Source: a virus | Virus record (IMG/VR): IMGVR_UViG_3300005534_000037 | Location: 1-28,699 of that record | Direction: 5' to 3' (one strand) | Length of the DNA stretch: 28,699 nucleotides | In this document: positions 1 through 28,699 of the stretch, piece after piece | Position numbering within the stretch: position 1 is the first letter of the stretch | Layout: every line of letters starts with the position of its first letter | Made by a program: the position numbers and the translations under genes | Notes under the pieces: generated by a model | The model's input: only the letters and a program-made list of their open reading frames with translations | Told to the model about the DNA's origin: nothing | Databases searched by the model: none

Positions 1-3000
1 TGCCGATCCCAGCCATGTCCGGCGCCTGCTCCGGCGAGCCGGCGAGCGTGTAGCTCACTGTGTCGATCGGACTCACGCCACCGTACGGATCACGGTAGCG
101 CACGCCAGCCGTGTAGGAGCCGCCGCCTAACCCGCGCAACCAGTCGATGATGCTGCCCGGGAACGCCGAGTCGACGATGTCGGCGCCGGTCGGCGGCCCC
201 GCGCCGGCGACGTTCAGCACCTCGATCGCGCAGTCAGCCTCCGTGTTGAACCAGAGGAGGAGCACCGAGCTTCCCGTGATGCTGGACGCGCTGAGCCCCG
301 TGGGCGCCGTCAGCGCCGTCGTGTCGAGGTATTCGGTGGGCGGCGGATAGACCCACGCCGAGGGGAGACCGCCTGCGCCATCAACGCCCGAGACGCTGCG
401 CGCGCGCCAGAAGATCCGCGAGCCCGACGGCAGGTCCGTGACCGAGAGCGTGCGCGACGTCGTGAGCCGCCCTGCGTAGCGCCAGCCCGGATCGCTGTCC
501 GCCGGCCGAACGGCGGTCCCCGCCGGTTGCGCGTTCCAGTAGACGGCGGCCGGATCGTTCGCGGCGTCGAGCGTGACCGCGATGTCGCCATCGAACCGCG
601 TGTCCACGCCCGCCGTCGGGCTCGCGAGCGTCGGCGTGTTGAGCGCGGTCCCCGCGCCCCCAGCGTCGATGCAACGCAGGTAGACGGTGCCGGTGTCGTG
701 GTCCTCCGTGCGCTTCAGGCAGAGGACCAGGCGCGAGCCGCCGCGCGTGTTGCTCGCGCTGTTGGGCTGCTTCGTGATCGTCGCCGTGAACCACGTGCCT
801 TCCGTGACCGCCAACGCGCGCGTCGTCGGCAGGCACCAGAGCGTCAAGTACTGCGCGCCCGCTTGGAACGGCGCCAGCGTCTCATCGAGGAGCTCGGCGA
901 GATTCGCCACCACCTCGGACACGTTGGACACGCTGCCGTCCAAGTGCACGAAGCCGTGGTACGCGAGCGCATCGAGCGTCTGCGAGTGATCGCCCAGATC
1001 CCGCGCGCGCCCGGTGTTGTTGATCAACACCTCGGGCACCTGCTGCTCGTCGATGAGACCGCCCGCGATGTCCGGAATCGTCGGGTCGTCGAAGTGCGTG
1101 AGCTTGTTGAGATTGAGCTGCTGGTCGACGTACCACGTGGCCGTCATGCGCGTGATCGCGTCGTTGTCCGCCTGCTCCCATTCGACCGCGTTCGGATCGC
1201 TCACGAGATCGGTGTCGGTGAGCTCGATCGTCGCCGCCGCCGAGGCCGAGAGGCGCAAGTCGAGCGGGATAACACTCCCGTCCTCGCCGAGTCGAAAGCC
1301 TAACGCAAACTGCGAGCAGATATTGTCGATGAGCCACGTCGACACCGACGCATCGTTGCCGGAGCCGTCTGAGGCGACGAGCTTCTTGATCACCCAATTG
1401 CCGTTGGGGATCGTGGTGTCGGCGATGAGCGCGGCGAAGGCGGCCGCGTCGTACTTGATCGCGGTGAGCGGGGCGCCCGTCGCGGCGTCCAGGTAGCCGA
1501 ACTTTCCGTCCAGGATGTCCTTCCAGAGCTGCACCGGATGGACATCGCTGATGAACATGGGCTGCGCGTCGGTGGGGCCGATCGCCGGCGTGATCGTGAT
1601 GCCGCCGATCGACCCGCCGGCTGCGGGCAGGTCGGCATCCCATGGCGACTCGGAGCCGTCGACGCCGATCTTGACGCCGTAGACCGCGCAGAGGCGGTAC
1701 GTGTCGCTCGTCTCGTGCTGACTCGGGATGTGGCTCCAGATCGAGCGGAGCGCGTACTGGTGCCCGTTGACGTTGAGGGTGATCGCGTCGCCCGTGAAGT
1801 CCCAGCGGATGGCGAAGTTCGTGTCCTCGGCCGAGGCGCGCGCGTTGAGCACCACGTTGTCGGCTTGGTCCAGGAGCGCGTGCGTGAGCGTGTTCTCGGG
1901 GTCACGGCGTCCGTTGCACTCGATGACTTTGGTGAAGCCCTGCACGGCCGCGCGGACGATGCCGGTAACCGGCGTCAGCACCGGGAAGCCGCCGAACGCG
2001 ATCGGCAAGCCTAACGGACAGTAGGGCGCGAGCGCGGCGTACGTGATCGAGGTGTGCGGCTGGCCGACAAAGAGGTCCGCTTCCATGTCGTCCTGCAGGT
2101 CGCGGATCTGGGTCGTGTAGCGCTGCAGTCCCGAGAGCACCGGATTCCGCACGCGACCCGTCGCGAAGGTCGCCCACGTTGCGCCGCCGTCCAGCGAGCG
2201 CTCGATCACGCAGCGGCACCCGCCTAACTGCACCACGCCGTCGGTCCCGCCTAAGAAGGCGGTGAGCCACCGCTCGAGGTTGGACGTGCCCGTGCGCTTG
2301 TCCAAGAACTCGAGCGTCCAGCTGCCCTTGTCCGTCGCCTTGGCTAAGAGATCGATCTGGCCGCGCTCGCCCGACACCGTGTCGAGATACGGCTTGTACG
2401 TGATGCCGGTGTCCGTGAACTCGGGCAGCGTCGACACCGCGAACACGTCGGAATGCGGCGCGCCGGCCGCGGGCACCAAGAGTTGCGACTCGGTGCTGTC
2501 GTTCTGGCTCTTCGGCTTGTAGAAGCGCGCGCGGTAGGCCGGCGTGTAGCCGGAGATGGGCACCGTGTCCGAGCGGCGCAGCACGATCTTGAGCGCGCGC
2601 GAATAGTCGGGCTCGGCCGACGGCGGGCTGCCGGCGTAATCGCCCATCGCCGGCTCCAGGAGCTCGGCGACGAAGTACGTGGGGCTCGTGCCGTCCGGGA
2701 AAAAGAGGAACGTGCCGCCGTTCCAGCAGTACTCGAGAAACGCTTCCCAGCCCGACGCGCCGTCCCAGCCGGTCGCGATCGTCGCGCCTAACCCGTTCAC
2801 CTCATCGGTCGCGGGGATGTAGCGGATCATGCCCGAGAGGCACCACTCCGTGCCCTCGGTCCAGGCGTCGGTCTCGCCGCTTCGGATCTGCTGCACGTCG
2901 GAGCCTTTCGACATGCGCGGATACGCCGCGGCCTCGTCGAGGGGGTAGCGCAGCACGAGCGGCGTCGCGAGTCCGCCCGGAAACCACGTGATCTTGGGGC

Positions 3001-3052
3001 GCGTGCCGAGCGAGGAGCCGGAGGGAATCGGGCCCGGGGCTAAGATGGTCAC
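1..3052 (-). CDS. Tail-tip / baseplate hub-like protein with Fn3-like C-terminal region (partial, runs off left edge)
   Basis: I translated the minus strand from a GTG at 3052-3050 and found no stop codon down to position 1, giving about 1017 codons with the 3' end outside the window. The start lies 4 bases after the stop of the upstream distal tail gene. Residues about 20-162 match the C-terminal domain of that upstream protein (GATIATGWD at 89-97, FFPDG at 117-121, LLEP at 131-134). The middle is a long region without a motif I can name. The last 200 or so residues are rich in Thr, Ser, Pro and Gly, with short strands like fibronectin type III repeats (for example SPTAGVDT, APTGLSASS). Position after the tape measure and first distal tail gene fits a tail-tip or host-contact protein. 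TTA-GGC Leu-Gly pairs recur (125, 1298, 2009, 2222, 2786). The function is inferred from gene order and size; the open frame is directly seen. Confidence 0.85.
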   Translation of the reverse strand, partial: MTILAPGPIPSGSSLGTRPKITWFPGGLATPLVLRYPLDEAAAYPRMSKGSDVQQIRSGETDAWTEGTEWCLSGMIRYIPATDEVNGLGATIATGWDGASGWEAFLEYCWNGGTFLFFPDGTSPTYFVAELLEPAMGDYAGSPPSAEPDYSRALKIVLRRSDTVPISGYTPAYRARFYKPKSQNDSTESQLLVPAAGAPHSDVFAVSTLPEFTDTGITYKPYLDTVSGERGQIDLLAKATDKGSWTLEFLDKRTGTSNLERWLTAFLGGTDGVVQLGGCRCVIERSLDGGATWATFATGRVRNPVLSGLQRYTTQIRDLQDDMEADLFVGQPHTSITYAALAPYCPLGLPIAFGGFPVLTPVTGIVRAAVQGFTKVIECNGRRDPENTLTHALLDQADNVVLNARASAEDTNFAIRWDFTGDAITLNVNGHQYALRSIWSHIPSQHETSDTYRLCAVYGVKIGVDGSESPWDADLPAAGGSIGGITITPAIGPTDAQPMFISDVHPVQLWKDILDGKFGYLDAATGAPLTAIKYDAAAFAALIADTTIPNGNWVIKKLVASDGSGNDASVSTWLIDNICSQFALGFRLGEDGSVIPLDLRLSASAAATIELTDTDLVSDPNAVEWEQADNDAITRMTATWYVDQQLNLNKLTHFDDPTIPDIAGGLIDEQQVPEVLINNTGRARDLGDHSQTLDALAYHGFVHLDGSVSNVSEVVANLAELLDETLAPFQAGAQYLTLWCLPTTRALAVTEGTWFTATITKQPNSASNTRGGSRLVLCLKRTEDHDTGTVYLRCIDAGGAGTALNTPTLASPTAGVDTRFDGDIAVTLDAANDPAAVYWNAQPAGTAVRPADSDPGWRYAGRLTTSRTLSVTDLPSGSRIFWRARSVSGVDGAGGLPSAWVYPPPTEYLDTTALTAPTGLSASSITGSSVLLLWFNTEADCAIEVLNVAGAGPPTGADIVDSAFPGSIIDWLRGLGGGSYTAGVRYRDPYGGVSPIDTVSYTLAGSPEQAPDMAGIG

Positions 3053-3056
3053 GGCG

Positions 3057-4076
3057 TCAGTATCCGAGCACGGGGCCGCCTAACGAGCGCAGCGTCAGGT
3101 CCTGCTTGAAGCGCTTCTGTCCGTCTTTGTCCGGCGGTCCCGCATCGATCGGCTCGACGAGCAACACGGGGTAACTCACCGCGAGGTTGGAGGCGTCGGG
3201 GTAGAACGTGAGCACCTGCTGGTCGCGCGCGGCGATGAGGAACTGCTGCCACCCGTCCGCGTCGTCCCAGCCGGTGATCGTGGCGCCGTCGTCCTGCGTG
3301 CCGCCGATCGCGGGAATGCGACGCGCGGTGCACTTGAAGAGCTCATCGATGCCGGCGAGCGCGCGGAGCCGGCCGAGCGGGCCGTCCAACATCGTGGAGT
3401 TCTTCCGCGGCTGCGGGTAGCTCTCCCCGACGTCGCAGTAGAAGCGGAGGCCGCCCGATGTGCTGAGCGGCGTGCTGATCGAGAGCGCGTCCCAGAAGAT
3501 GAGCCGCTCGAGCGAGCTGCCATCGGCGGTAAAGTCGAAGACGCCGAGCTTGACCGTGAGCTGCCCGCTCACGTCCGTGACCGCATCGATCTCGAGCGTC
3601 TCCCACTCGTCGAACGCGCCGAGGTAGGCCGATGCGGCGCCGATCTGCATGCCGATCGGCGTCGATGCTGGCGAGCCGCCGTTGTGGAAGCCCACGCCGC
3701 ACGCGCAGCGCACGACGACCGCCGTGGACGGCGGGAGCCCGGTGAACGTGCGGCTCACGTACATCGTCGGGTTGGGGCCCGGCGCGCCGCCGTCGTTGAA
3801 GAGGCAGCGGAGCGCCTGCGCGCCGTCGTACTTGGCGCCCGGCGCGAACGCGCTGCCGGCGCCCTCGCTCACGACGTCGAACGAGGAGGCGCCCGACGTG
3901 TTCACCTGGGTCGTCGGCCACGTATCGACGAGCGGGGTGAGGCCGTTGGCGTCCGTGCCTGTGCCGGTCGCGTTGTTGTTGAAGCCCTCGAAGGGCTCGA
4001 AGGCGATCGGCGTGTCAGTGGTGACGCCCACCCAATCGATGCGCGCGACCTTGCTCCGGTTGACGCCCCTACCCAC
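3057..4076 (-). CDS. Distal tail protein with carbohydrate-binding-like N-terminal half
   Basis: A 339-residue protein starting at a GTG whose bases overlap the TAG stop of the tape measure gene (GTGGGTAG), so translation is probably coupled. Residues about 24-205 look like a beta-sandwich of the type seen in carbohydrate-binding modules: FEPFEGFNN near the start, alternating beta-like stretches, and FWDALSIS near residue 194. Residues about 208-339 form a second domain with GATITGWDD (264-272), a YPDAS motif (292-296) and LLVEP (305-309). The same domain opens the next protein, which suggests duplication. The position just after the tape measure is where distal tail (Dit-like) proteins are usually encoded in siphophages. 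The structural role is inferred from order; no Dit signature was recognised in the sequence itself. Confidence 0.8.
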   Translation of the reverse strand: MGRGVNRSKVARIDWVGVTTDTPIAFEPFEGFNNNATGTGTDANGLTPLVDTWPTTQVNTSGASSFDVVSEGAGSAFAPGAKYDGAQALRCLFNDGGAPGPNPTMYVSRTFTGLPPSTAVVVRCACGVGFHNGGSPASTPIGMQIGAASAYLGAFDEWETLEIDAVTDVSGQLTVKLGVFDFTADGSSLERLIFWDALSISTPLSTSGGLRFYCDVGESYPQPRKNSTMLDGPLGRLRALAGIDELFKCTARRIPAIGGTQDDGATITGWDDADGWQQFLIAARDQQVLTFYPDASNLAVSYPVLLVEPIDAGPPDKDGQKRFKQDLTLRSLGGPVLGY

Positions 4077-7000
4077 GGCGCGAGCCTCGGCGCGTGCGGA
4101 TCACCATACGCCGGTCGCCCACCTCTTCACGCATGCGATTGTAGTTGGCGAGCTGCGTCGGGTCGCGCGGATCGAATTTGTCGCCCTCCCAGATGACGAC
4201 GGCGCTGCCGGTGAGCGCGGCCATCGCGGCCTGACTCGCCGTCTGCTGCCGGCTTGCGCTCGAGCCACCGCCGCCGCCGCCGCCACCACCACCGCCGCCG
4301 GACCCGCTGATCATGCCGCCTAACGTCGCCATCGCGGCGGCTGCCGCCATGTACTCTGCCGCAGCGGCTAAGTGCTGCCCGGCCATCGCCGGGTCCGCGA
4401 TCGCTTCCGCGATTTGCTCGATGGCCTTGCCCATCCAGAGCTTCGCGAACGACTCGGCCACCTCCGCGATCGCGCTCTTCATGGCCTTCTTGAACGCGTC
4501 GCCGGCGTTCTTGGCACCCGCGCCTAACGCCTCGAAGGATTTGATGAAGCCTTCCGCGAATGCCCCCGAGAGGAGCGACGCGATGTCCTGAATCGAGACC
4601 TTGACCTCCTGCAACCGGTTGCCGGTTTGTGTGAGGCCCTGGTTGATCTGCTGGAGCGCCGTGGTCGGACTGCTGCCCGCGTTGTGCGACTTCGACTGCT
4701 TGGTGGTCACGGTGGCGCCCGGCAGCAGCATCGCGGCCGTTGAGTCGGGCATCATCGCCATCTGCGCGAATTCCATGAACTGCTCGGCCGAGCGCTGGGA
4801 CCGCGCCGGCTCGGTCAGGATCTCGTTGAGCTTGATGAGGCGTTCCTTGAGCTTCGCGATCTCCTCGTAGGCTTTGACCTGCTCGGCGGAGCCGGGTTTG
4901 AGCGTGGCGAGCAGTTTCTCCTCAGCCGCGAGCTGCTTGTCGGTCTCGTCTTTGATCGCCGCGAGGCGGTCGAGTTCGCGTTTCCCGAACTCGGCGCGGA
5001 TGGGCTCGAGTTGCTGGTCGATCACGCCCATCTGCGCCTTGAGCCGAGCCCGCTCGCGCTCGATGCCCGCGAGGTTCTGCTCAGCGATTGCCTGCCGCGC
5101 GATGTTGTCCGGGGACAGCGGGCCGGCAACCGAGGCGAGCGATGCTTTGGTCAATTCGTCGCGCGCGGCCGCCTCCTTCTGCTGCAACTGCGCGTCGCGG
5201 ACTTGCATGTCCGCGTACTTGACCTGCAGATCGGTGACGCCTTTCAGTTCGTCGCGCTGCAGCGCGCGGATCTTCTCGAGCGCGGCAATCTCGCCGTCCA
5301 AATCCTTCTGCAGCCGCGCGGCTTTTTCGGGGTCCTCGGCGTCCGGGTTCGGCAGCGCCGGATTCGGATTCCGCGGCAGCTCCTTGCTTGAGCCGAGATG
5401 ATACGTGGCGCGGTCCGCCTGTGCCTGCGCGCTCTTGTCCTCGGGATGCGCGAGTAGGTAGTCGACGCGATCGGCGCCGAGCTTGTTCGCAGCCTCGTTC
5501 GTCGCGCGGAGTTTGACATCGGCGTCCACCAGATTGCCTAACGCGCCGACGAGCTTCTCCTGGCCCGTGATGGAGACGGTGAGTTGCTGCTCGCGCGCGT
5601 ACGCCTGCGTGCCCGGAATCCGGCTGCTGATCGGATTCCGGATTTCGTTCATGAACTGCTCGGCCTCGAGCACGAGGAGCCGCGTGCGCTCCCACGCTTC
5701 GTTCACCGCGTCGATGAAGATGCGGATCGAATCGATGCCGTATTGCAGGAACTCGGCGATCTTCGGCTGGTTCTGCGCGAGCTTGTTGACCCAGTCGATC
5801 ATCTTCTGGATCATCGCGCCGAACGCCGTGTTGACGCCGGACTCGCCGATCGCCACCGCGAGCTTGAAGAGCGCGGTCTTGAGGTTCGTGACCTCGCCCG
5901 ACAGCGTCTTCATCTGGTCCTGCGCGGCGTTCGGGAACGCCTCGCCGATGTGCTGGATGTACGCCGCGATGCTCTCCGAGTCGGCGTGCACCGTCGTGGT
6001 CATGCCGTGGAACGTGGCTGTGAACGTCTTCGTCGTTTTGTCGAGATTCGAGATCTGCACGCCCACGTTGCTCAGTTGGTTCTTGAGCGGGCGCATCATG
6101 TCGGCGTCGGCCGAGCGAATCGCGAGCGCCAGATCCTCGATCGTGCTCTTCGACAACACCGCCACGTTCGCGAACGCCTGCATCTCGCGCTTGGTGGGCG
6201 AGAGGCCCAAGCCTAACAGCCGCTGGTAGCCCTCCGTGATGTCCTGGAGGGTGAACGGCATCTTCGTTTCGATGTCGATGAGCGACGCGATCGCGTCCTT
6301 GGCGACCGTCGCACTGCCTAAGAGCGTCGTGAGGTTGATCGAGAGGCGCTGGAACTCGCTGTTCGCGTCGTAGAGCCACTTGCCGATGCCACCGAGTCCG
6401 CCTAACGCGACCAAGCCCGGGAGCGAGGCGACCGACGTCCAGATGCTCGAGATCGCGCTTCCCAGCCGTTTGACGCCGCCCCAGACGCCTTCCACGATCG
6501 AGCCCAGCCCGCGGAAGAACGCGGCGATCGGGTGCGAGGCGCCGCCCGCGACCTTCCGCTCGATGGCGGTGATCTCGTTCTCAAGCGCTTTGACGCCCTG
6601 GACGTTGGGCCCGATCTCTTTGATCCACGCGCGCTCGGCCGACGCCGCCTGCTGGAACGCTTTGACCGCATCGCGATCGGTGACATCGATCTGCTGCCGC
6701 AGCTTCGCGAAGCCAGCGATGGATTCCGCGACCTCGGCCCTGAGCGCGAGCCCCGAGGCGCCGCCGCTGACTTTCGTCGCCACGGAGGGCGCTGCAGTCG
6801 TCCGCCCGGTGATCTTGCCGAAGATGCCGGAGAGGAAGCCGCCCGCTTTCTGCGCGCCGCTCGCGAGTGCCGCGAAGGCGCTCTCGCCCACCTGCTTCGC
6901 TTTGTCGAGCGCCTGGGTGATGAGCGAGGTGTGCGACGCAAACTGGCCGGCCGTGTCGCGCCAGCGGTTCGCGACCTGGTCGAACTGGAGGCCCTGCGCG

Positions 7001-7134: not shown

Positions 7135-7164
7135 GCGGCACGCTCCATCGCGTCTGGGTCCTCA

Positions 7165-7889
7165 TCACATCACCTCGTCCGCGTCGACGCGGAGCCGCTT
7201 GCGCATCATGATCGTGCCGGCCGCCTGCTCGAAGAGGTCGTCGATCGCGTTCTTGATGGACGGCGCGTTGCTCCGGCAACTCGCGTACGCCAGCTGCATC
7301 GCGTGGAGCATCGTGCGACCTTGCCGCGCCTCGAGGTGCGGGAGCGCGTCCATGGCGAGATCGAACCACGCCGCGGGAATGACGTGGTCGCTGGTCGGGT
7401 AGAGCGCGTTCCGGTAGGCGTCCATCCCGAAGCAGCGGATGAACTCCCACTGCCGCAGGTGTTGCGGCTCGATGGCGACGATTAGCTCGTGCCACTCCCA
7501 GCGGCGCCCGGCGTCGGTCCCTCCACACTCGGCGGCTTCTCGTTCGCGCTCGAGCCGAGCGGCGCGCTGCGAAGGGACTTCAGAAAACCCAGCACGATCT
7601 CGCAGGCGACTGCGGGCGGCAACGCGAGCACGCGATCGGCGACGGTGGGCTCGCGGCGCGCCAGCCACCGCGTGGGCGGCGGCGGGAAGATGCGGTCGAG
7701 CACCTTCCGCATCTGGCCGAGCATCGCGCCAAAGTCGTCGCGCTTCTCGGCGTCGCTGAGTTTCTCGAGCGTGCCTAACAGGCGGACCTGCTCCTCGAAG
7801 GAGAGGTGCCGCCCGATGAACGTCTCCCCGTGGATCTTGAGCTGCGGCGCGTCGAGCTCCGCCAGCATTGCATCGGCGTCTTGCAGCAT
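7165..7889 (-). CDS. Tail assembly chaperone long form, gpG-T-like fusion made by -1 frameshift
   Basis: The frame running to the stop at 7165 is open upstream to about 7668, but it has no ATG/GTG before the well-formed stretch WHELIVAIEPQHL. The first in-frame ATG is deep inside (CFGMDAY). The upstream short chaperone gene is in the 0 frame and contains GGGTTTT at 7590-7584, read G-GGT-TTT, a canonical X-XXY-YYZ slippery heptamer. A -1 slip after residue 102 continues in this frame as SEVPSQRAARL and so on, giving a product of about 241 residues. In siphophages the minor fused chaperone and the major short form coat the tape measure during tail assembly. This gene pair sits exactly between the tail tube and tape measure genes, as expected. 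Frameshifting itself is inferred from the slippery site, the frame relation and the missing start. Confidence 0.8.
7482..7889 (-). CDS. Tail assembly chaperone short form (gpG-like)
   Basis: 135 residues from the ATG at 7889. The protein is helical and charged through residue 102 (FEEQVRLLGTLEKLSDAEKR, then VADRVLALPPAVACEIVLGF). The tail after residue 102 is low-complexity Ser/Gly/Pro sequence ending GSGTS, which looks like a terminus not under strong structural constraint. That fits a frame that is left by some ribosomes at the GGGTTTT site (7590-7584). Position between tail tube and tape measure is the classic place for this chaperone. A strong hairpin (7925-7960) lies just upstream of the start. 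I saw no sequence match strong enough to name a Pfam family; the call rests on position, the overlapping -1 frame and the slippery site. Confidence 0.82.
   Translation of the reverse strand: MLQDADAMLAELDAPQLKIHGETFIGRHLSFEEQVRLLGTLEKLSDAEKRDDFGAMLGQMRKVLDRIFPPPPTRWLARREPTVADRVLALPPAVACEIVLGFLKSLRSAPLGSSANEKPPSVEGPTPGAAGSGTS
7584..7590 (-). other. GGGTTTT -1 ribosomal frameshift slippery site
   Basis: On the minus strand the 0-frame codons read CTG GGT TTT CTG, so G-GGT-TTT is a perfect X-XXY-YYZ heptamer. Slipping back one base lets both tRNAs re-pair (GGG, TTT). The -1 frame is open from about 7668 to 7167 and joins the chaperone short form to the downstream frame. The heptamer is in the region where both frames are open, which is required for a functional site. 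Confidence 0.8.
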
Positions 7890-8989: not shown

Positions 8990-9051
8990 CGCTCCGGTCT
9001 CCTAAAGTGAGTGCAGTGCGTGAACGTCGTTAGGCGTGCAATCCGTGCGAC

Positions 9052-9396: not shown

Positions 9397-9426
9397 CGGT
9401 CAGTCCTCGCGGGAGGTCGTTAGGCG

Positions 9427-11063: not shown

Positions 11064-11075
11064 GGCCAGCGCGCG

Positions 11076-11797: not shown

Positions 11798-11869
11798 CGA
11801 GCCCTCCGCGAGCTCAAGAGTTGCCGACTGTGGACGCCATCACCTGCCTAACTGACGAGCGCCCTCACC

Positions 11870-15141: not shown

Positions 15142-15170
15142 CGAGACACCTCCCAAAGTGTGGACCTGCG

Positions 15171-18163: not shown

Positions 18164-19777
18164 TTAGAGTGTGACGAGCGCGCCGCCCATGCTCTCGTTC
18201 TGCGCCACGTTCTCGCGACCGAGCCACGCCAGCATCTCGGATACGAGCACGTCTTTCCCGGTGAGTTGCGCCGTGCCGGCGACGCCGCGGAGGACGCCTA
18301 ACGCATCGCGGAGCGCCGCAGTGGACGGGACGTCGACGCGCCGTTCGTGCGCGGCCTTGAGGAGTTGGCGCCCGGCGTCGAGCATGAGCGGCTTGGTCTC
18401 GCCCGTGGTCGCCCAGCCGATGCGGTCGTGGTAGCGCTCCGACGATTCGTCGAGCGGGGCGCGGTGGTAGAGGAGATCCGTCGGGTAGTCGTGCACGTCG
18501 CGCAGCCGGCGGAGCACGGTGATGCCGTGCATGTTCTTCTCGATCACCCAGAACGGGAGTTCGCGCGGTCCGGCGATCTCGCGCGACCAGGTGTACAGGA
18601 TGTCGGCCGCCTCGGTGGGCTCGGCGTAGCGATCTTCCCACGTCGCGACGAGCCGCCACGATGGCCAGCTCCGAATGACCCACGCCTCGCGGTCGCCGCC
18701 GCCGCCTTCGGCGGTGTCGCAGCCGCCGATGAGTCGCTCGCCGTACGGGAGATCGAGCGCGCCGGTCTCGTCGCGGCCGACGTAGAGATTGAGCGTGCCG
18801 TTCAAGTGCGTTTCGCACGGCGCAGGCGCGCGCAGGAGCAGCTCGCGCAGCATGCCGACGTCGTAGAACATGCCCTCGGCCGCGGCCCAGCAGCTCTCTT
18901 CGTCCTCGGCGTATTCCTGGAGGAAGATCGTGCGGTCGTACTCCGCGATCTTGGCGCGTCGCCACTTGATCTGCTCGAGCGTCACGCCGTGGTGCGCGAT
19001 GAGCGTGCGCTCCTCATCGGAGAGCGGGCCTAACTCGTCGGGCTCGAAAAGGGGCAGGCGATAGTTGGTCGGATCGCAGACCCACCACGGGAAGAACAGT
19101 TTGCGGTAGCCCTTCTCGGTGGCGTGCTGCCAGAAGGTGTGCGCCGCGCTCCCGTGTCCGCTGGCTGTCGTCTCGAGCACGACGACCGAGCCTTGCGGGA
19201 TGAGCGCGGGCCCAGCCGAGCCGAGCGCGCCTTCCGGATCCTCGAAGTACGCGAACTCGGAGCAGTGGAGTCGGCCTAACGTCAGGCCGCGGCCGGGCTC
19301 GCCGCGCGCGGTGTCGGTCAGGAACCGCGTGTCCAGCCCGGGGAAGGTGATCTCGCGCGTCTGCGCTTCGCCTAACACGGGGCGGAGCGCGCGCGGGAAG
19401 TGATCGATCGCCCGGCGCGTCACCTCGAAGATTTCGTCGGTGCGATCGCGCGCGTCGGCCAGCGTCAGCGCATCGGTGTAGGGCGTGCCCCACACGAGGT
19501 GCAGCGATTTCGCCTGCTCGTACGTGGTGACGCCGGGCTGGCGCGCTTTCAGCGCGAAGAGCCGCGCTTCACCTTTCCGGGCGAGATCCTCGCGTTCCGC
19601 TCGCTCGAGCGCCAGCTGCACGGCGTTGAGCCGCAATGGCTCGATGCGTTGGGCTTTCGTCCGGATGTAGTAGCAGGTCTCGGCCCACGCGCGGAACGAG
19701 CCTTTGAGACGCGCGATGCCGTGCGCGAGCGCCGGCGCGTGCGCGGTCCGCGTGTCGAATCGCACCGCCGCGGTCAT
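18164..19777 (-). CDS. terL: Terminase large subunit
   Basis: 537 residues from ATG 19777, in ATGA overlap with the small subunit stop. The packaging ATPase motifs are visible: a Walker A-like deviant KARQPGVTTY (77-86), a Walker B-like HCSEFAYF (171-178) and the coupling motif ETTASG (202-207). The nuclease half has GGCDTAEGG with Asp 354, then VIEKNMHG (Glu 413) and a helical C-terminus beginning WATTGETKP. The family couples ATP hydrolysis to DNA translocation into the procapsid and cuts concatemers. Size is normal. It also holds four TTA-GGC words (18296, 19028, 19274, 19370). No other annotation competes. Confidence 0.94.
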   Translation of the reverse strand: MTAAVRFDTRTAHAPALAHGIARLKGSFRAWAETCYYIRTKAQRIEPLRLNAVQLALERAEREDLARKGEARLFALKARQPGVTTYEQAKSLHLVWGTPYTDALTLADARDRTDEIFEVTRRAIDHFPRALRPVLGEAQTREITFPGLDTRFLTDTARGEPGRGLTLGRLHCSEFAYFEDPEGALGSAGPALIPQGSVVVLETTASGHGSAAHTFWQHATEKGYRKLFFPWWVCDPTNYRLPLFEPDELGPLSDEERTLIAHHGVTLEQIKWRRAKIAEYDRTIFLQEYAEDEESCWAAAEGMFYDVGMLRELLLRAPAPCETHLNGTLNLYVGRDETGALDLPYGERLIGGCDTAEGGGGDREAWVIRSWPSWRLVATWEDRYAEPTEAADILYTWSREIAGPRELPFWVIEKNMHGITVLRRLRDVHDYPTDLLYHRAPLDESSERYHDRIGWATTGETKPLMLDAGRQLLKAAHERRVDVPSTAALRDALGVLRGVAGTAQLTGKDVLVSEMLAWLGRENVAQNESMGGALVTL

Positions 19778-21679: not shown

Positions 21680-22056
21680 GTGCCTCTCCTTGTCGGTGTA
21701 GCTTCTTCCGGCGGCAGCAGCGCCGCGATGCGACGGGCGAGCGCGAGTGCGTCGTCGGCGAGCGCGGACTCCTCTCCGTCCCGGGCCACTTCCAACAGCG
21801 CGGAGTACGCGGGGCCACGCAGGAGCTTTACATCGTCGCGCGTGAAGCCGAATGGCTGCTCGTGGAGCGCGAGCGCTGCGAGCGCGTGGAGCGCGGCTTT
21901 GTCGATCATTACCGCGTCGTCGCCGCGTGCCGCGTTGAGCGAGCCAGCGTAGATGTACGCTTCCGTGAGCGGTGGGATGCCGGTGTCGCTGCGCCGCACT
22001 GCCGCCGTCCTCCACTCCTCGGCCGTCAGCGCTGGCCTAACCGTTTCGTCGCTCAT
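21676..22056 (-). CDS. Hypothetical protein, 126 residues
   Basis: Starts at ATG 22056, overlapping the upstream stop (ATGA). Acidic/helical with no metal or catalytic motif I can name (ALTAEEWRTAAVRRS, then SALADDALALARRIAALLPP). Soluble, in contrast to the membrane proteins on both sides. Function unknown. Confidence 0.7.
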   Translation of the reverse strand: MSDETVRPALTAEEWRTAAVRRSDTGIPPLTEAYIYAGSLNAARGDDAVMIDKAALHALAALALHEQPFGFTRDDVKLLRGPAYSALLEVARDGEESALADDALALARRIAALLPPEEATPTRRGT

Positions 22057-22361: not shown

Positions 22362-22855
22362 CGCAGCTCCTCGATGGTGATTTCAGCGCGCGGCCGATCG
22401 ATGTCGATCGCCGCCCGGATCCACCGCTCGTCGACCACCTGCACGTCGTCCGCGTACGCCACGCCGCACAGCGCATCCTTCAGGCACTTGGCGAAGTTGC
22501 CGACGTCGCGGCGCTGCGCGTTAGGCGGGAAGATACGTGCGATGAGGGCGATCCGTCCAGAGAACGGGGCGCGCGGCCCCCACTGCTCGGCGGCTTCGGC
22601 GTGGGCGCGCGTCCGGGCGAGCTTGTACGCGGCAGCGTCGGCGCGCGAGCTCACGGGCCCGCGGTGTCGGTTGTCGGACATGAGGCAGCTCCACGGCAGC
22701 ACGAGCGTGACCGGCCCAGCTGGCGCTGCGGCGAGCGCCGTGCTCAGATGTTCGGACATCGGCGACATCGTGGCGCGCGCGGCCTTCTCGGGCGGCACGC
22801 CCTGCGCGATGAGCCCGCGCCGGATCTGCTCGTCGGTCAGGCCCATGCTGCTCAT
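22358..22855 (-). CDS. rusA: RusA-like Holliday junction resolvase
   Basis: 165 residues from ATG 22855, overlapping the upstream stop (ATGA). The C-terminal 120 residues carry the RusA pattern: VTLVLPWSC near 53, FPPNAQRRDVGNFAKCLKD near 110-128, then CGVAYADDVQVV with the two adjacent Asp that in RusA bind metal. RusA resolves Holliday junctions during phage replication and recombination. A roughly 50-residue N-terminal extension (SSMGLTDEQIRRGLIAQG) is unusual for the family, so a later start (for example at MSPMSEHL or MSDNRHRG) is possible, but the overlap with the upstream gene favours the longer form. Confidence 0.82.
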   Translation of the reverse strand: MSSMGLTDEQIRRGLIAQGVPPEKAARATMSPMSEHLSTALAAAPAGPVTLVLPWSCLMSDNRHRGPVSSRADAAAYKLARTRAHAEAAEQWGPRAPFSGRIALIARIFPPNAQRRDVGNFAKCLKDALCGVAYADDVQVVDERWIRAAIDIDRPRAEITIEELR

Positions 22856-23112: not shown

Positions 23113-23444
23113 TTCTGGGCCTCGGTTCGCGCCTTCTCGGCGTAGAGGGAGCGGACCTGTTCGCGAACACAGGTGAGTGCCATGCCGTGCCCGACGCGGA
23201 TCAGGTACAGTTCGTCCGGTCGCAATTCAGGCGGGAACGCGGCGAGTAGCTCTTCCAGCGCCGGCCGCTTCCTGAGCTCGGCGATCTCGGCGTCCTTGGC
23301 GGCCAGTTCCTGCTCGACGGCGGCGAGGTCTGCGTTGGTTAGGCGCTCGTACGACAGCGTCGTTTCGCTATACGCGGGATGCCCACAGGCAACCCGCTCC
23401 GACGTAAGCGTCGCGTGCAGCCGCTGGATCACGGTCGGGGTCAT
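23109..23444 (-). CDS. Hypothetical protein with coiled coil, 111 residues
   Basis: Starts at ATG 23444, overlapping the upstream stop (ATGA). Middle has a heptad-like helix (LAAVEQELAAKDAEIAELRK) and the C-terminus is acidic/aromatic. No family recognised. Carries a GTTAGGC word read as CTA-ACC (Leu-Thr). Confidence 0.72.
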   Translation of the reverse strand: MTPTVIQRLHATLTSERVACGHPAYSETTLSYERLTNADLAAVEQELAAKDAEIAELRKRPALEELLAAFPPELRPDELYLIRVGHGMALTCVREQVRSLYAEKARTEAQK

Positions 23445-23916: not shown

Positions 23917-25227
23917 ACGTGGTCCGTCTTCCTGCAAGCCCAACCGCTCGTCGATCTCCGCGCGGAGGTCCCTCTCATTCTCACCCTGCGAATCACTTGA
24001 GAACGAGAATGCGGCCTGAGAATCCGGCTCTCGCAGTTGAGAACCGGCGGCGTTGTCACCGGCGCCACCTCTCTCACTAACGTGAGAGAGAGGGGGCGCG
24101 CCGGAGTGACGTTCCGTCGAATTGTCCGAGTGAGAATCGGCGTGAGAACTGGCCGCGTCCCTGAGAAACGCCTTACCGTCCGGCGTCACCGAGAACCGGA
24201 TCGAGTTGCCCTTCTCGGACATGGCGATGTACTGCAGGCGGAGGAGGTCACCGCGCGCGCGGTAGAACGTCGCGTCGGACTTGCCGCCGGCCTGTTTCCA
24301 ATCGTTCTGCGATGCCGGGCCGCCCAAGAAGTCGCGCGCGAGGATCTCGAGCCAGAAGCTCGCGCGCTTGCCGGCCGCATGGCTCTGACCGGCCCGCGGC
24401 GCCGCGATCGCGAGCGACTGCTCGCTCTTGACCAGGCGCATCGTGATCGGCGCGAACGGCGCCGCATCCTTCTGCGCCACGCATGTGAGGGTTAGGCTGT
24501 CGTTCTCCTCTTTGAGCGCCATCATGGTGTCGACGGCGCCGCGGAGGGAGCCGGAGCCGCGCTCTTCCTCGCCGGCCCGGTTCGTGTGGTGCACGACGGT
24601 CACCGTGGCACCGGTGCGCTCCTTGAGCGCGTCGAGGGCGTTCACGGCCATCCCCATATCGCGCGCCGAGTTCTCCTCGCCACCCACGAAGCAGCGCGCC
24701 AGGGTGTCGAACACAATCAGCGCTGGCGGCTCCTCGAGGAGATCGAGCTCCTTCTGGAATTCCGACATGTGCCGCTGGTCGAGGAGCTGCACCGCGCGCG
24801 GTAGGACGTGGAGTCGGACGCCGAACGTCACGCCGTGCGCCGCCTTCCACGCACGCCAGCGCTGGCCCAGGCCGGAGCGCCCTTCGCCGATCACGTACAC
24901 GACCGTCCCTTTGCGCACCTGGCGGCCAAAGAACGGTCGCCCAGACGCGACCGAGAGCGCCATGTCGAGCACGACGAACGTCTTGCCGAGCTTGGCCGGC
25001 CCGTAGATCGCTGCCAGCGCGCCGGCGGGCAGCACGCCGTCGATGAGGAACGACGGTGGCGGAATCGACTCGAGCTCCTCGATCGAGAGGAGCCGAAACG
25101 GCCGCTTGAGCGGTAACGCCGGAGCTGCATCGTCGCTGCGGCGCGCAGGCGCGTGGAGCGCGCTGTCAGCCACAGCCGCGAGATAGGACTCGCTGAGATA
25201 CGGAGCGGGCGCGAAGGGTGACGACAC
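23902..25227 (-). CDS. RepA-like RecA-fold ATPase / helicase
   Basis: 441 residues from GTG 25227. A RecA/DnaB-type core is clear: Walker A GPAKLGKT (76-83), Walker B ALIVFDT (169-175), and a HHTN segment (213-216) like motif H3 of RepA-type hexameric helicases (AAA_25 family). A winged-helix-like region at about 291-355 (LARDFLGGPASQNDW, FYRARGDLLRLQYI) may bind DNA. The last 80 or so residues are Ser/His/Asp/Glu-rich and probably disordered. The family loads or unwinds DNA during plasmid and phage replication. It is the only replication ATPase seen; no primase or replicative polymerase is in the window. A GTTAGGC word (24491) and paired GTTGAC repeats (23.8-23.9 kb) lie in or beside the gene. 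Confidence 0.86.
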   Translation of the reverse strand: MSSPFAPAPYLSESYLAAVADSALHAPARRSDDAAPALPLKRPFRLLSIEELESIPPPSFLIDGVLPAGALAAIYGPAKLGKTFVVLDMALSVASGRPFFGRQVRKGTVVYVIGEGRSGLGQRWRAWKAAHGVTFGVRLHVLPRAVQLLDQRHMSEFQKELDLLEEPPALIVFDTLARCFVGGEENSARDMGMAVNALDALKERTGATVTVVHHTNRAGEEERGSGSLRGAVDTMMALKEENDSLTLTCVAQKDAAPFAPITMRLVKSEQSLAIAAPRAGQSHAAGKRASFWLEILARDFLGGPASQNDWKQAGGKSDATFYRARGDLLRLQYIAMSEKGNSIRFSVTPDGKAFLRDAASSHADSHSDNSTERHSGAPPLSHVSERGGAGDNAAGSQLREPDSQAAFSFSSDSQGENERDLRAEIDERLGLQEDGPRVDEG

Positions 25228-25230
25228 GAG

Positions 25231-25620
25231 TTAGGCAGCATGGGAGGAAGTGGAGGGGCCAGGCTGTGACGCGAGACACTGCGCGGCCGCCAGCCGCGCG
25301 CGATGCGCGAGCCAGTGGTTGCCGTGGCGCTCGAGCTCTAGGGCGTGCGCCTCCCATGCGGCCGCGCGTTCGAGCGGTGGGCGCGCGGCGCCAGCATCGA
25401 GCACGAGCTGTCGCCACCGCTCGAGCGCGGGGTACGCGGCCTCGGCGCGCGTCGTGAATTCGGCGAGCTGCGCCCCGGCCTGGACGAGTGCCTCAGCTGC
25501 GTCGAAGAGATCGAGCAGCGCGAGAGCATCGGCCGGCGCCAGCGTGACGGGCTCGCCGGCGTACGCCGTGAGCAGTGCAGGGAACACCGCGATCGCGCGA
25601 CCGAAGGCGTCGGGCGTCAC
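25231..25620 (-). CDS. Hypothetical protein, 129 residues
   Basis: Starts at GTG 25620 (GTGA overlap) and ends in a GCCTAAC stop 3 bases before the ATPase start. Very Ala/Leu-rich, helical (PADALALLDLFDAAEALVQAGAQ), with a few Arg. No motif recognised. Directly upstream of the ATPase, so may be linked to replication. Confidence 0.68.
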   Translation of the reverse strand: MTPDAFGRAIAVFPALLTAYAGEPVTLAPADALALLDLFDAAEALVQAGAQLAEFTTRAEAAYPALERWRQLVLDAGAARPPLERAAAWEAHALELERHGNHWLAHRARLAAAQCLASQPGPSTSSHAA

Positions 25621-25987: not shown

Positions 25988-26430
25988 GACGCCGCCTCCC
26001 AACGCAGTTTCAGTTGCGTCGGATGCAGGTCCACCCGCAGCCGCGACTGACAGTTCCACGAGCCACCACCGGCCTCACCGAGACACTTCCATCCGGCCGC
26101 GACGAGCGACGTGCCCGGCTCGGTGGCGAGCGTGTACGTGATCAGTCTGCGGTAGCCTAACGCGCGCACGGCGCGCCACGCGGCGCCGTAGAGTTTGCTC
26201 GCCGCGTGTTGTGTTCCGTCCGTGCAGCAGCGCGTGACTTCAGCCGTCCACGAGGCTTGCAGGTTCCGCGCGACCGGTCGTCCGATGATCGCGACGCCGC
26301 AGATATGATCCGTACCAACGGCGACGCAACAGATACAGCCACGCGACGGGCCGTGGTGGCGATGGTGCTCGCGCACGAAGGCGTTGGCCTCGCGCAACGT
26401 GATCGGCACGAGCATGAGCGGCGGCGTCAC
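25984..26430 (-). CDS. XF1762 family protein
   Basis: 148 residues from GTG 26430, overlapping the methyltransferase stop (GTGA). The protein matches the phage XF1762 family closely: LVPITLREANAFVREHHRHH near the start, GVAIIGRPVAR around 44, EVTRCCTDGT near 64, then ASKLYGAAWRAVRALGYRRL, and SWNCQSRLRVDLHPTQ at the C-terminus. The layout suggests an acetyltransferase-like fold, but the reaction is not established in my knowledge. The gene is widespread in phage accessory blocks. A TTA-GGC word lies inside the conserved ALGYRRL segment (26155). Confidence 0.85.
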   Translation of the reverse strand: MTPPLMLVPITLREANAFVREHHRHHGPSRGCICCVAVGTDHICGVAIIGRPVARNLQASWTAEVTRCCTDGTQHAASKLYGAAWRAVRALGYRRLITYTLATEPGTSLVAAGWKCLGEAGGGSWNCQSRLRVDLHPTQLKLRWEAAS

Positions 26431-27173
26431 GCAACCTCCGCGTGGTGCTCAGGCCGATAGACGTGCGCGATGTGTTGCGCTAACGCGAGCGGGATTTTGG
26501 CAATCCGCGCCGACTCGGCCTTGCGGGATAGCGACTTGCTGTTCGTCGCGCGAATCGCGCCGGGCGATGAGTTGTGGAACCAGGTGCCACCAACCTTCCG
26601 GCCGTCAGGATTGTTTCCGCGTCCGCTGCCTGTGTTGTGCGCGACGTTGAACCACGACCCGCCACTATTCTTCATCGCCCGGTCCGCGCCCATGGTCTCC
26701 ACCTTCACGGCGCGCATCGTGATCGGCATGAGCGCCGGCACATCGCCCCACAGGTAGTAGGAGCCGTAGTGCCAGCGCGCGCGCCCAGCCCACCGCTGCG
26801 CGCCGCACACGTTCTCTTGGACCATTGGGATGTACCGTCCCGCAGCGGCGCACGCTTCGCGCTGGATGCGAGCCGCTTGCGCGAACAACTCCATGCCTAA
26901 CTCTGGCGGTCCAAGCGCCTTGGCGCGCTTCCACGGCATCGCGCGGTAGCTGAACTCCTGGCACGGCGAGCTCGCGACGATGATCGCCGCGTCCTTGAAT
27001 TGCGTGCCGTCGAGCGTGCGCACGTCTTGCAGCACGAGCTGCGCCGGGTAGCGGTGCGCGCCGTAGACGTGGCGCTCGATGTCGAAGCCGATGCACTCGT
27101 AGCCCTCGGCCAGAAACCCCTCGGTCCAGCCGCCGAGGCCGCAGAAGAGGTCTATGCAGAGCGGCTTTCTCAT
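26427..27173 (-). CDS. C5 DNA cytosine methyltransferase
   Basis: 248 residues from ATG 27173, overlapping the stop of the upstream gene (ATGA). C5-methyltransferase motifs are visible: motif I DLFCGLGG (8-15), motif IV SSPCQEFS (68-75) with the catalytic Cys 71, motif VI QENV (119-122), and a C-terminal SRKAESARIAKIPLALA segment (216-231) like motifs IX-X. It is short for a complete C5 enzyme; the region between motif VI and the C-terminus, where the target recognition domain should be, is a Gly/Asn-rich segment (GSGRGNNPDGRKVGGTWFHN). It may have a minimal recognition domain or depend on a partner. No restriction enzyme gene is nearby, so it is more likely a self-protection methylase. Confidence 0.86.
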   Translation of the reverse strand: MRKPLCIDLFCGLGGWTEGFLAEGYECIGFDIERHVYGAHRYPAQLVLQDVRTLDGTQFKDAAIIVASSPCQEFSYRAMPWKRAKALGPPELGMELFAQAARIQREACAAAGRYIPMVQENVCGAQRWAGRARWHYGSYYLWGDVPALMPITMRAVKVETMGADRAMKNSGGSWFNVAHNTGSGRGNNPDGRKVGGTWFHNSSPGAIRATNSKSLSRKAESARIAKIPLALAQHIAHVYRPEHHAEVA

Positions 27174-27736
27174 CGCCGGATGGCTCCGAACTCGGCCGCG
27201 AGCCGGTCGCGCCGGCTGGGCAGCACGCACGGCAGGTCCGCGAGCGCGAAGAACGCTTCCTCGGTCTCCGTCGGCACGATCTCGCGCGTCGCCTCGTGGA
27301 TCACGTGGCCCTCGCGGTGCACGTACCCGCGATCGATCAGCCGGCGCATCGCGAGCGCGCCTAACTCTTGGGGCCCGGTGCGAATCGCGAGCAGGCTGCC
27401 CCACGCGCTCGGCGGCATGCGCACGAAGAGCTCGCACGCGACGGCCGGGTCATCGTAGAGCGCGGCGCGCATGTGCCGGGAGCCGCCGACGCGGATGTGG
27501 CCGATGTCCAGCTCGACGCGGTGCCGGATGGCTTCGACCTCGTAGACGGGCTCGCCGAAGAGCGCGGGCTCGGTGCGCGGCTCGACCAGGAGCTCGATAT
27601 CGCCGACGTCGGGTCGTTCGCGGCGGAGCGAGCCGACGATGACGCCGCGGGCGATGACGGGCGCGAGCGTGGTGAGCACGCGGGTGGCGATCGCGAGCGC
27701 CTCCGCGCGCGGCATCCGGCGCAGCGTGACGCTCAT
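27170..27736 (-). CDS. Small polymerase-X-like nucleotidyltransferase
   Basis: 188 residues from ATG 27736, overlapping the upstream stop (ATGA) and the next start (ATGA). The DNA-polymerase-beta-type palm is visible: VIVGSLRRE (33-40), then PDVGDIELLVEP (42-53), where Asp 46 and Glu 48 match the two metal-binding acids. The segment ACELFVRMPPSAWGSLL (100-116) aligns with the third acid region; it has Glu 102 where most have Asp. The C-terminal ETEEAFFALADLPCVLPSRRD resembles the polymerase X thumb end. No N-terminal helix-hairpin-helix or PHP domain. It could be a minimal repair polymerase or a nucleotidyltransferase of another use. The two neighbours are a methyltransferase and a small unknown gene. 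Confidence 0.76.
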   Translation of the reverse strand: MSVTLRRMPRAEALAIATRVLTTLAPVIARGVIVGSLRRERPDVGDIELLVEPRTEPALFGEPVYEVEAIRHRVELDIGHIRVGGSRHMRAALYDDPAVACELFVRMPPSAWGSLLAIRTGPQELGALAMRRLIDRGYVHREGHVIHEATREIVPTETEEAFFALADLPCVLPSRRDRLAAEFGAIRR

Positions 27737-27951
27737 AGGTCGTCGACCTGAATCTGCCAGCGCACTCGTTCTTCCGCAGCCTGATACATCTCGCGCAACG
27801 CAGCGAGGTGCTCACGCCGATCACTCTCGGCGCTTTCAGGGCCGACGTATTCGTCCGTGTGCGCCTCGCAGCAGAAAATCGCAGACCGTAGAAGGTTACG
27901 GCACTCCCGCAGTCGCTTCAGCGTCAACCTTCTGGTGGGCGCGTTAGGCAT
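27733..27951 (-). CDS. Hypothetical protein, 72 residues
   Basis: Starts at ATG 27951. That ATG overlaps the stop region of the upstream HNH-DUF4326 gene (AATGCCTAAC: ATG-CCT-AAC for this gene, GCC-TAA stop for the other). Sequence is helical and basic then acidic (LTLKRLRECRNLLRSAIFCC, then REHLAALREMYQAAEERV). Two adjacent Cys (FCCEAH). No family recognised. Its stop overlaps the next start (ATGA). Confidence 0.66.
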   Translation of the reverse strand: MPNAPTRRLTLKRLRECRNLLRSAIFCCEAHTDEYVGPESAESDRREHLAALREMYQAAEERVRWQIQVDDL

Positions 27952-28354
27952 TGGCGATGTCCAGCAGCACGTCGGCGTGACAGGGGGTGTCGAGCTTGCA
28001 CCAGCACGCGAGGTTCTTCCCGCGCAGCGCGCGCCGGATTTCGCCGGTCGTCGGTGGCACTCCGATCGTGTCATTGAGTTCACCCGCGAGCCACGCGCGG
28101 AAGTCTTCGACCGCGTCGTATCGCGTGGAGCGACGATTGTCGAGCTTATCACGATTGACATGGTCGGTCTCCTGGCCCAGACGCGCGGAGATGATTTCCC
28201 TGTGTAGATAGACGGTCCTGCGTCGGCCGCCGGAATATTCAACCCGGAACGCATAGCCGTTCGGGTGTAGCCACCACCGATGCTGCGATTGCGTTGTGTA
28301 ATCGGCTTCATCGACGACCGCATGTCCGCGCGGGTGCAGCGCGATGGACATCAT
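27944..28354 (-). CDS. HNH endonuclease-like domain fused to truncated DUF4326
   Basis: 136 residues from ATG 28354 (a second ATG follows at once). Residues 5-75 form an HNH homing-endonuclease-like unit: DEADY near 15, RWWLHPNGYAFRV, VYLHREI with His 51, and DHVNRDKLDNRRS (64-76) with Asp 64, His 65, Asn 67 and Asn 73. From residue 78 the sequence matches the second half of DUF4326: YDAVEDFRAWLAGE, then LRGKNLACWC (110-119) and CHADVLLD (125-132). The usual DUF4326 start with the 'SKWGNPF' segment is missing, as if the HNH domain replaced it. No frameshift is visible. The product may be a genuine fusion or a recombinant remnant. First gene of the leftward array. Confidence 0.75.
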   Translation of the reverse strand: MMSIALHPRGHAVVDEADYTTQSQHRWWLHPNGYAFRVEYSGGRRRTVYLHREIISARLGQETDHVNRDKLDNRRSTRYDAVEDFRAWLAGELNDTIGVPPTTGEIRRALRGKNLACWCKLDTPCHADVLLDIANA

Positions 28355-28573
28355 GGGAGCGACCACCGCGCGACGGCGAAGAGGGCGCCGAGCGAGACGG
28401 GCGCACCTCCCGGACTGGTGCGGACAGACACGCGTGCGGCGCGTCGGGAACGCGCGCATCCCGATTGCGGTCCCGTTACGGTTTCAATCGCCGCCTTTGG
28501 ATGCTTTTCGGGTTCGAGAAGCGCGTTTTCTCCGCCGTTTTCGCTCTGAAGGAGCGGAGACGCGGTTTTACTG
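28355..28573. other. Gap without a recognised gene between the first phage gene and the tRNA fragment
   Basis: No convincing gene on either strand. Short frames exist, but they lack Shine-Dalgarno sites and coding-like composition. The stretch contains several TTTTC/GAAAA runs (for example GCGTTTTC, CCGTTTTCG, GCGGTTTT near 28521-28570) and an inverted CTCCGC/GCGGAG pair (about 28528-28557), which could be integrase or host-factor binding sites next to an attachment core. That use is inference. Confidence 0.4.
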
Positions 28574-28610
28574 CATCGGTAGGTTGTAGGTTCGATTCCT
28601 ACAGGGCGCA
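28574..28610 (+). other. tRNA 3'-end fragment, probable phage attachment core
   Basis: On the plus strand: variable loop AGGTT (28581-28585), T stem GTAGG (28586-28590), loop TTCGATT (28591-28597), T stem CCTAC (28598-28602), acceptor 3' strand AGGGCGC (28603-28609) and discriminator A (28610). The anticodon and D arms upstream cannot be folded and no GCGCCCT partner is found 5', so only the 3' part of a tRNA is present. A terminator follows at once. This is typical of the half of a tRNA att site that lies on the host side. Confidence 0.7.
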
Positions 28611-28612
28611 CT

Positions 28613-28657
28613 CACGAGGCGCAACGACCGATAGGCGTTGCGCCTCGTGTTCTTTCT
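28613..28657 (+). terminator. Intrinsic terminator after the tRNA fragment
   Basis: A perfect 14-pair stem CACGAGGCGCAACG (28613-28626) / CGTTGCGCCTCGTG (28636-28649), a 9-base loop, then TTCTTTCT on the plus strand. It is a strong intrinsic terminator directly after the tRNA 3' end, as in a normal tRNA gene, so the sequence to its right is probably host chromosome. Confidence 0.85.
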
Positions 28658-28699
28658 CGGCACGGTATCCACCGCGAGCATCCTTGTCGTCGATGCGCC

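Follow-up and report, generated by a model that had tools for sequence, protein, structure and literature searches.

The stretch of DNA analysed here (the window) is the whole of the virus record IMGVR_UViG_3300005534_000037 at its full length of 28,699 bp; we call the phage it represents W, and use G- and L-numbers for the other contigs and loci with which it was compared. W is a virus record of its own, without an attached host genome. All 36 of its genes, called with our own simple gene caller, lie on the minus strand and include those for tail tape measure, major capsid, portal, large terminase and head morphogenesis proteins, together with a replicative helicase/primase-type ATPase. Spread through these genes and the gaps between them is one exact heptamer, GCCTAAC (GTTAGGC on the complementary strand), which is also in great excess on the plasmids of Gemmatirosa kalamazoonensis. 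We conclude that GCCTAAC is a word of the host, almost certainly so in Gemmatirosa and very probably so in the host of W, which is itself probably a member or close relative of the Gemmatimonadota.

Copies of GCCTAAC in the window

The window holds 35 exact copies, 26 reading GCCTAAC and nine reading GTTAGGC on the plus strand, the same numbers that a preliminary description of the sequence had given when it judged the word to be well above chance. Copies on the plus strand lie at 125–131, 1298–1304, 2009–2015, 2222–2228, 2786–2792, 3078–3084, 4318–4324, 4522–4528, 5536–5542, 6211–6217, 6400–6406, 7773–7779, 10104–10110, 10344–10350, 11846–11852, 15263–15269, 15774–15780, 17787–17793, 22035–22041, 26155–26161, 26895–26901 and 27359–27365, with four more inside the large terminase gene (18164–19777, minus strand; phrog_2) at 18296–18302, 19028–19034, 19274–19280 and 19370–19376. 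On the minus strand the word stands at 9029–9035, 9419–9425, 22520–22526, 23338–23344 and 24491–24497, and at four places where it contains the TAA stop of a minus-strand open reading frame (ORF): 11075–11081 (ORF 11076–11393), 15170–15176 (ORF 15171–15953), 25230–25236 (ORF ending at 25231) and 27943–27949 (ORF 27944–28459). These are the four GCC-TAA-C stops that had been placed at 11076, 15171, 25231 and 27944, and each is the end of such an ORF.

Counting both strands, Markov models of order 0, 1, 2 and 3 expect 3.2, 1.1, 1.2 and 4.6 copies in the window, so that second- or third-order composition, which the preliminary description had singled out as able to explain the excess away, does not do so. 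Models of order 4 and 5 expect 19.6 and 34.3 copies; they track the count because GCCTAA (38 copies) and CCTAAC (37 copies) occur almost solely inside the word. By z-score, GCCTAAC ranks first among all 7-mers of the window under the order-1 and order-3 models alike. Its near neighbours are scarce: 19 of the 21 one-mismatch variants have six copies or fewer, the other two being GCCGAAC (13 copies, 9.5 expected) and GCCCAAC (8 copies, 3.2 expected).

Codon choice, the other explanation that the preliminary description had named as refuting, does not reproduce the excess either. When the genes of the window were shuffled among synonymous codons (n = 500), a mean of 1.2 copies was obtained (standard deviation 1.06, maximum 5), compared to the 27 copies observed in called genes. 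The other eight copies lie outside genes or at a gene edge, and there the ratio of GCCTAAC to GTTAGGC on the plus strand is 2:6, compared to 26:9 for all sites; the strand bias of the window is thus real, but it is not found at the sites outside or at the edge of genes. Two details of codon usage had to be amended. The GTT-AGG pair does occur twice, as described, but TTA-GGC is found 22 times in called genes where 23 had been reported; and TTA, which had been said to stand always before G, does so in 31 of 33 codons, 22 of the 33 being inside the full word.

The word on Gemmatirosa plasmids and other replicons

We take W to be of soil origin, which together with the style of its proteins was the reason for trying the Gemmatimonadota. 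The DNA of this phylum that we examined consists of the two plasmids of one species, Gemmatirosa kalamazoonensis, and the word read backwards served as the control. Plasmid 1 (NZ_CP007129.1; 1,106,233 bp, 72.7% G+C) carries 892 copies of the word (436 on the plus and 456 on the minus strand), compared to 50 of the reversed word and an order-1 expectation of 30.9, and GCCTAAC is its top 7-mer by order-3 z-score. The 8-mer GCCTAACG occurs 778 times on this plasmid versus 16. Plasmid 2 (1.04 Mb) has 806 copies versus 44 of the reversed word. Of the TTA codons called on plasmid 1, 374 of 393 (95%) lie within G-TTA-GGC; this leucine codon is therefore in effect reserved for the word.

No comparable density was found on plasmids of Methylorubrum (29 copies in 1.26 Mb), Rhodococcus (10 in 1.12 Mb), Cupriavidus (21 in 452 kb), Deinococcus (4 in 177 kb), Rhodothermus (2 in 125 kb) or Salinibacter (4 in 36 kb, 3.0 expected), and on five of these six plasmids the word is rarer than the reversed control. 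The Rhodothermus and Salinibacter plasmids also led us to reject the Rhodothermota as host. When genome contigs were searched with the major capsid protein of W, the only matches were a Planctomycetaceae contig and a Sulfurimonas contig. Planctomycetota were likewise rejected: all 49 genomes have under about 60 words per Mb, compared to about 800 per Mb on the Gemmatirosa plasmid, and the two in which the word exceeds the reversed control are still below that level.

Within plasmid 1, long word-free gaps are not clearly low in G+C, and windows with no word at all (3 of 200) are too few for testing recent acquisition. With an integron-like region (795–885 kb) masked, the fully non-coding DNA of this plasmid carries 1.07 words per kb and its genes carry 0.66.

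The word among relatives of W

W is distant from named phages: bases 1–25,000 gave no DNA-level match to a named phage record, and its terminase has 18 matches among named phages, every one below 35% identity. Its closest long relative, G003 (46 kb, terminase 81% identical), carries 64 words compared to 1.7 expected, and its 44 coding copies compare with 1.7 in synonymous shuffles; it has RecT and a phage integrase match (25 bits, cut-off 27.1). G006, whose terminase is 49% identical to that of W, has 17 words in 15.4 kb versus 0.6 expected. In genes of W with an ungapped counterpart in G003, 16 of 24 words are kept each way, with one more gapped, a sample too small to prove selection by itself. 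Two further genes of W were observed, both on the minus strand: a C5 cytosine methylase gene at 26427–27173 that matches the N-terminal part of the profile only (Pfam positions 3–79 of 324), and a gene at 27170–27736 that resembles one in G003 (44206–44772) and matches a DNA polymerase beta palm domain below threshold (23.8 bits, cut-off 25).

A terminase alignment, in which 80 of 100 relatives were kept, supplied 74 further loci. L036 has eight words in 10.2 kb, L041 has three in 4.8 kb, two loci have two, and the remaining 70 have none or one; many of the loci are short, so a low count in any single one says little. Closeness to W does not by itself bring the word, as L004 (62% identity) has none in 6.4 kb and G005 (50%) has one in 74 kb. 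Of the 21 rows of a terminase tree, six carry the word and 15 have no more than one copy in the stretch examined; the six fall in three separate places, so that three changes are needed, at least two of them forced by well-supported branches. Being scattered in this way, the word tracks something other than phage descent: it follows composition and host.

Plasmid 1 itself contains a related phage. At about 0–106 kb (L172–L177), a 53-kb prophage lies in two adjacent copies that are 99.99% identical over 52.6 kb, a tandem duplication that may be an assembly artefact; a further copy of about 5 kb was noticed beside the pair. In a tblastn search of the plasmid, the prophage terminase was 55% identical to that of W over 502 residues, and the RecT and HerA-like proteins of the prophage share 51% and 50% identity with their G003 counterparts. 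One prophage unit (53,060 bp) has 42 words versus 1.8 expected. Over order-1 expectation, the enrichment is about 30-fold in the window, about 29-fold on plasmid 1 and about 23-fold in this prophage. Word densities per kb are 1.22 in W, 1.39 in G003, 1.11 in G006, 0.79 in L036, 0.79 in the prophage and 0.78 on plasmid 1 with the integron-like region masked. The preliminary description had proposed that a host word would be indicated if the host, too, had the excess, and the Gemmatirosa plasmids indeed carry the word at about equal density.

Tetranucleotide usage was compared with the words left in. W, G003, G006 and L036, four of the five word-rich phages tested, correlate best with Gemmatirosa, W and G003 being close relatives and hence not independent, and all six word-poor high-G+C relatives fit another genus better. 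The hosts of W, G003 and G006 are assigned from sequence, and W and G006 are assumed to be temperate.

Other word-rich contigs

Pattern scans for three spaced copies (60 and 17 stretches) returned mostly local clusters resembling tandem repeats. Among the six whole contigs counted from these scans, G060 (L170–L171; 38 kb, 43.5% G+C) is word-rich throughout, with 51 words versus 3.7 expected; its 35 coding copies compare with 2.0 in synonymous shuffles. Its relatives G070, G071 and G072 have 38 words in 44.9 kb, 26 in 32.9 kb and 7 in 10.5 kb. The phages of this clade have G+C contents of 43–45%; the G060 terminase has weak matches only among named phages, and no search we made linked the terminase of this clade to that of W. 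The same word may be in use in a second host lineage, or the agreement may be a coincidence. G060 also carries a second repeated motif, AAGGTCCGC/GCGGACCTT, in 12 copies. The short contig G066, with nine words in 11.5 kb (1.3 expected), may be word-rich throughout as well.

A scan for pairs of GCCTAACG gave at least 120 stretches; among the 78 examined, 16 had at least five copies and at least five times the expectation. Four whole contigs were counted, and of these G073 (67% G+C; 71 words in 82 kb) is word-rich throughout; a 12.5-kb part of it has a single weak match to the proteins of W, G003 or G006. Most of the other many-copy stretches look like integron arrays, judged by spacing only. 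Four virus-labelled loci (L330, L288, L298 and L303) have integron-array-like word clusters at 2 to 4.7 per kb in the stretches examined and are possibly mislabelled, or the arrays virus-borne. Another high-G+C phage contig, L107 (IMGVR_UViG_3300044720_000012), has a different dispersed word, CGGGTAC/GTACCCG, with 32 copies (2.5 expected), and ACGGGTA with 25 (1.4 expected).

Phase, spacing and flanks of the word

On plasmid 1 the word is used in four coding phases (Leu-Gly, Pro-Asn, Leu-Thr and Val-Arg), as a GCC-TAA-C stop in 60 of 957 genes, and between genes. The earlier view that selection acts on the DNA word and not on the protein is borne out by this variety of phases, by the stop codons and intergenic copies, and by survival of the excess against synonymous shuffles.

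The words on plasmid 1 are spaced more evenly than random, with a coefficient of variation of 0.822 compared to a minimum of 0.884 in 2000 simulations (integron-like region masked, duplicate prophage unmasked); spacing is clearly even only here and in G006. The base directly after the word is G in 87% of the copies on plasmid 1, in 15 of 17 in G006, in 9 of 12 in the G073 part and in 33 of 42 in the prophage; it is G in 17 of 35 copies in W, 29 of 64 in G003 and 4 of 51 in G060, where A or T follows in 37 of 51. It looks as if hosts might differ in the edge of the word, the phage hosts being assigned from sequence and not to species level. A mild rise in AT at the third and fourth base after the word comes in part from the integron repeats, as the non-coding flank profile, like the orientation counts, was run with the array unmasked; the leading-strand count was repeated with it masked.

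The word as a possible DNA uptake signal

These observations suggest that GCCTAAC is a signal by which a cell's own DNA is marked, perhaps for DNA uptake. GCCTAAC would be a genome-wide word of the host that the phage has taken on, and a recognition mark by which the DNA-import (natural transformation) machinery of the host prefers the DNA of its kin. Biased uptake and recombination would then load the word into every replicon long resident in these cells, temperate phages included. This reading draws on an exact short core, present hundreds of times per Mb on both strands, on its even spacing, on what may be differences between hosts at its edge and on its sharing by resident phages. We put the probability that the word acts as an uptake signal in the host at about 0.5.

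By analogy, the word appears to resemble known DNA uptake words more than Chi. DNA uptake sequences (DUS) of Neisseriaceae often sit as inverted pairs at terminators; GCCTAAC differs in having only three convergent pairs under 60 bp on plasmid 1, and no pair under 60 bp was found in W. DUS are continuous short words with dialects (PMC12616744); GCCTAAC is likewise continuous and short, and may have dialects. The closest precedent is that of the Pasteurellaceae, for which one study reports that temperate phages accumulate the uptake signal sequence (USS) of their host, that word counts picked out all 12 such phages among 2,045, and that Hin-USS saturates near 750 per Mb (PMC6776037). The Pasteurellaceae USS (Hin-USS and Apl-USS), which has dialects by host lineage, is like GCCTAAC a short exact word at hundreds per Mb, carried by most temperate phages of the host; GCCTAAC may share the dialects too. 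GCCTAAC differs in belonging to another phylum, in its sequence, in its length of 7–8 bp instead of 9 and in its role in uptake, which is putative.

Several observations weigh against an uptake signal. No long AT-rich flank comparable to that of Haemophilus lies beside the word, inverted word pairs are few, and W and G003 show no significant evenness of spacing, while in G060 the spacing is more clustered than the mean of the simulations. W and G003 (1,220 and 1,390 words per Mb) surpass the host plasmid in density, an excess that simple passive accumulation would not predict. On the coding strand, W and G003 together have 64 GTTAGGC and 7 GCCTAAC, with 16 sites common to both, and this bias survives normalisation by usable sites, since 62 of 140 Leu-Gly sites are filled compared to 3 of 29 Pro-Asn sites; plasmid 1 has the reverse preference (200 of 481 Pro-Asn versus 377 of 2820 Leu-Gly sites). 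Outside or at the edge of genes, the sites of W and G003 are balanced at 16 to 12 relative to the main coding strand. The G060 clade shows that the word is not confined to the Gemmatirosa host group, and the tetranucleotides of G060 are quite unlike those of Gemmatirosa (r = −0.21). The competence (ComEC) family was found on neither of the two Gemmatirosa plasmids, where alone it was searched for. Finally, one prophage cluster and all large, likely lytic phages of Pasteurellaceae lack the uptake word of their host, according to the study cited above (PMC6776037).

Alternative explanations

The word could instead be bound or methylated by a host protein, as a HIP1-like word, a nucleoid-protein site or a self/non-self mark (of BREX type, for example) would be, and phage DNA would have to carry it to be tolerated. 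Host and phage DNA do have it at similar density and on both strands, its seven bases are exact with most one-mismatch variants at or below expectation, and MmeI-like and BREX methylation typically falls on asymmetric words that contain an A. HIP1 of cyanobacteria also occurs of order one per kb genome-wide, in and between genes, as GCCTAAC does; HIP1, however, is a palindrome, whereas GCCTAAC differs from its complement GTTAGGC, and phages usually avoid restriction/modification sites rather than gather them. We consider this account unlikely. A Chi-like word would stop the end-processing nuclease of the host (RecBCD, AddAB or AdnAB) and start recombination, from which both host and phage DNA would gain. 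Chi, which is GCTGGTGG in E. coli, is short, asymmetric and over-represented; so is GCCTAAC, whose length and density would suit a Chi word, whose orientation is biased in the genes of W and G003, and whose density there, above that of the host plasmid, would be explained by a direct benefit to phage DNA. But known Chi words work in a single orientation and are commoner on the leading strand, and on plasmid 1 the leading and lagging strands hold 428 and 464 words, with 135 of 267 on the leading strand for sites outside or at the edge of genes and 376 of 794 with the integron-like region masked, a test limited by the weak GC skew that defines the leading strand there. Strand ratios are also at or near balance for the sites of G003 outside or at the edge of genes (10:10) and for G006 (9:8), L036 (4:4) and G073 (32:39), and G003 has its own RecT. 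With no polarity on the plasmid, a recombination hotspot of the usual polar kind, one of the options raised in the preliminary description, is disfavoured, and we think a Chi-like role quite improbable.

Explanations in which the word has no role of its own, as a by-product of codon pairs, composition or mutation, fare worse. TTA is rare and tied to GGC, and on the plasmid most one-step neighbours fall below expectation, as a bias toward the word would leave them; yet GCCCAAC and GCCGAAC are above expectation there, and plasmids of four other high-G+C genera have no excess of the word. Codon-pair bias is ruled out by the synonymous shuffles, and codon-level bias as a source is excluded by these together with use outside genes; since four coding phases and the stop codons must also be accounted for, this whole group of explanations seems very improbable. 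A signal particular to the phage, for packaging, replication or a repressor of the stoperator kind, would fit the many sites and the preference of W and G003 for one orientation. The similar density on host plasmids already refutes it, leaving the earlier suggestions of a packaging signal or phage-only binding site unsupported, and 15 of the 21 terminase-tree rows have at most one copy in the stretch examined. Stoperator sites are confined to the phage and lie mainly between genes, and we rejected them because host plasmids carry the word and 27 of the 35 copies in W are inside called genes; there is next to no chance that the word is of this phage-specific kind. The integron recombination consensus is GTTRRRY, which GTTAGGC fits, and the words could accordingly be attC sites or secondary sites of an integron. 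Plasmid 1 does have clustered repeats that begin with GCCTAACG, mostly within 800–882 kb, and look like a cassette array, and several scan matches are dense word clusters resembling arrays. However, plasmid 1 with 795–885 kb masked retains 794 words at 0.78 per kb, and the excess therefore does not stem from the array; most copies in W are in genes. Moreover, attC arrays have paired R''/R' boxes in hairpin sites between short cassettes, an arrangement absent from the phage and from the plasmid at large: neighbouring words on plasmid 1 are near even in orientation (210/210/245/226), and GCCTAAC is followed by GTTAGGC in 210 of 891 neighbour pairs, equal to the reverse order. An integron origin of the words is hardly credible. 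The array itself, mostly at 800–882 kb, has GATTCGTTAGGC-type repeats between short stretches, with repeat boxes that coincide with the host word, and 59 of the 61 copies of GATTCGTTA on plasmid 1 lie within 800–900 kb.

Implications

To our knowledge, two proteobacterial families have established self-specific DNA uptake words. It is possible, and we advance it tentatively, that the Gemmatimonadota have a kin-recognizing DNA uptake system outside the Neisseriaceae and Pasteurellaceae, with a word of its own, GCCTAAC(G), which their phages mimic fully and for which a leucine codon is reserved, and that a second, low-G+C host lineage, that of the phages G060, G070 and G071, uses the same word. 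A literature search, whose coverage excluded most subscription journals, found no report of a GCCTAAC word or of uptake words in Gemmatimonadota, and the main text of a ComEC survey has no mention of Gemmatimonas or Gemmatimonadota (PMC6299819).

Whatever the word does, its density can serve in metagenomes, a setting in which assigning hosts is otherwise weak, as a practical tag for the phages and mobile elements that belong to this host group, with the caution that the G060 clade has the same word. The word is also a case in which a DNA word, and not translation, decides codon use, across nearly all TTA codons of a 1.1-Mb replicon. If GCCTAAC is indeed an uptake signal, uptake words would be known from a third group, in another phylum and one that is difficult to culture, and the origin of uptake specificity could then be tested.

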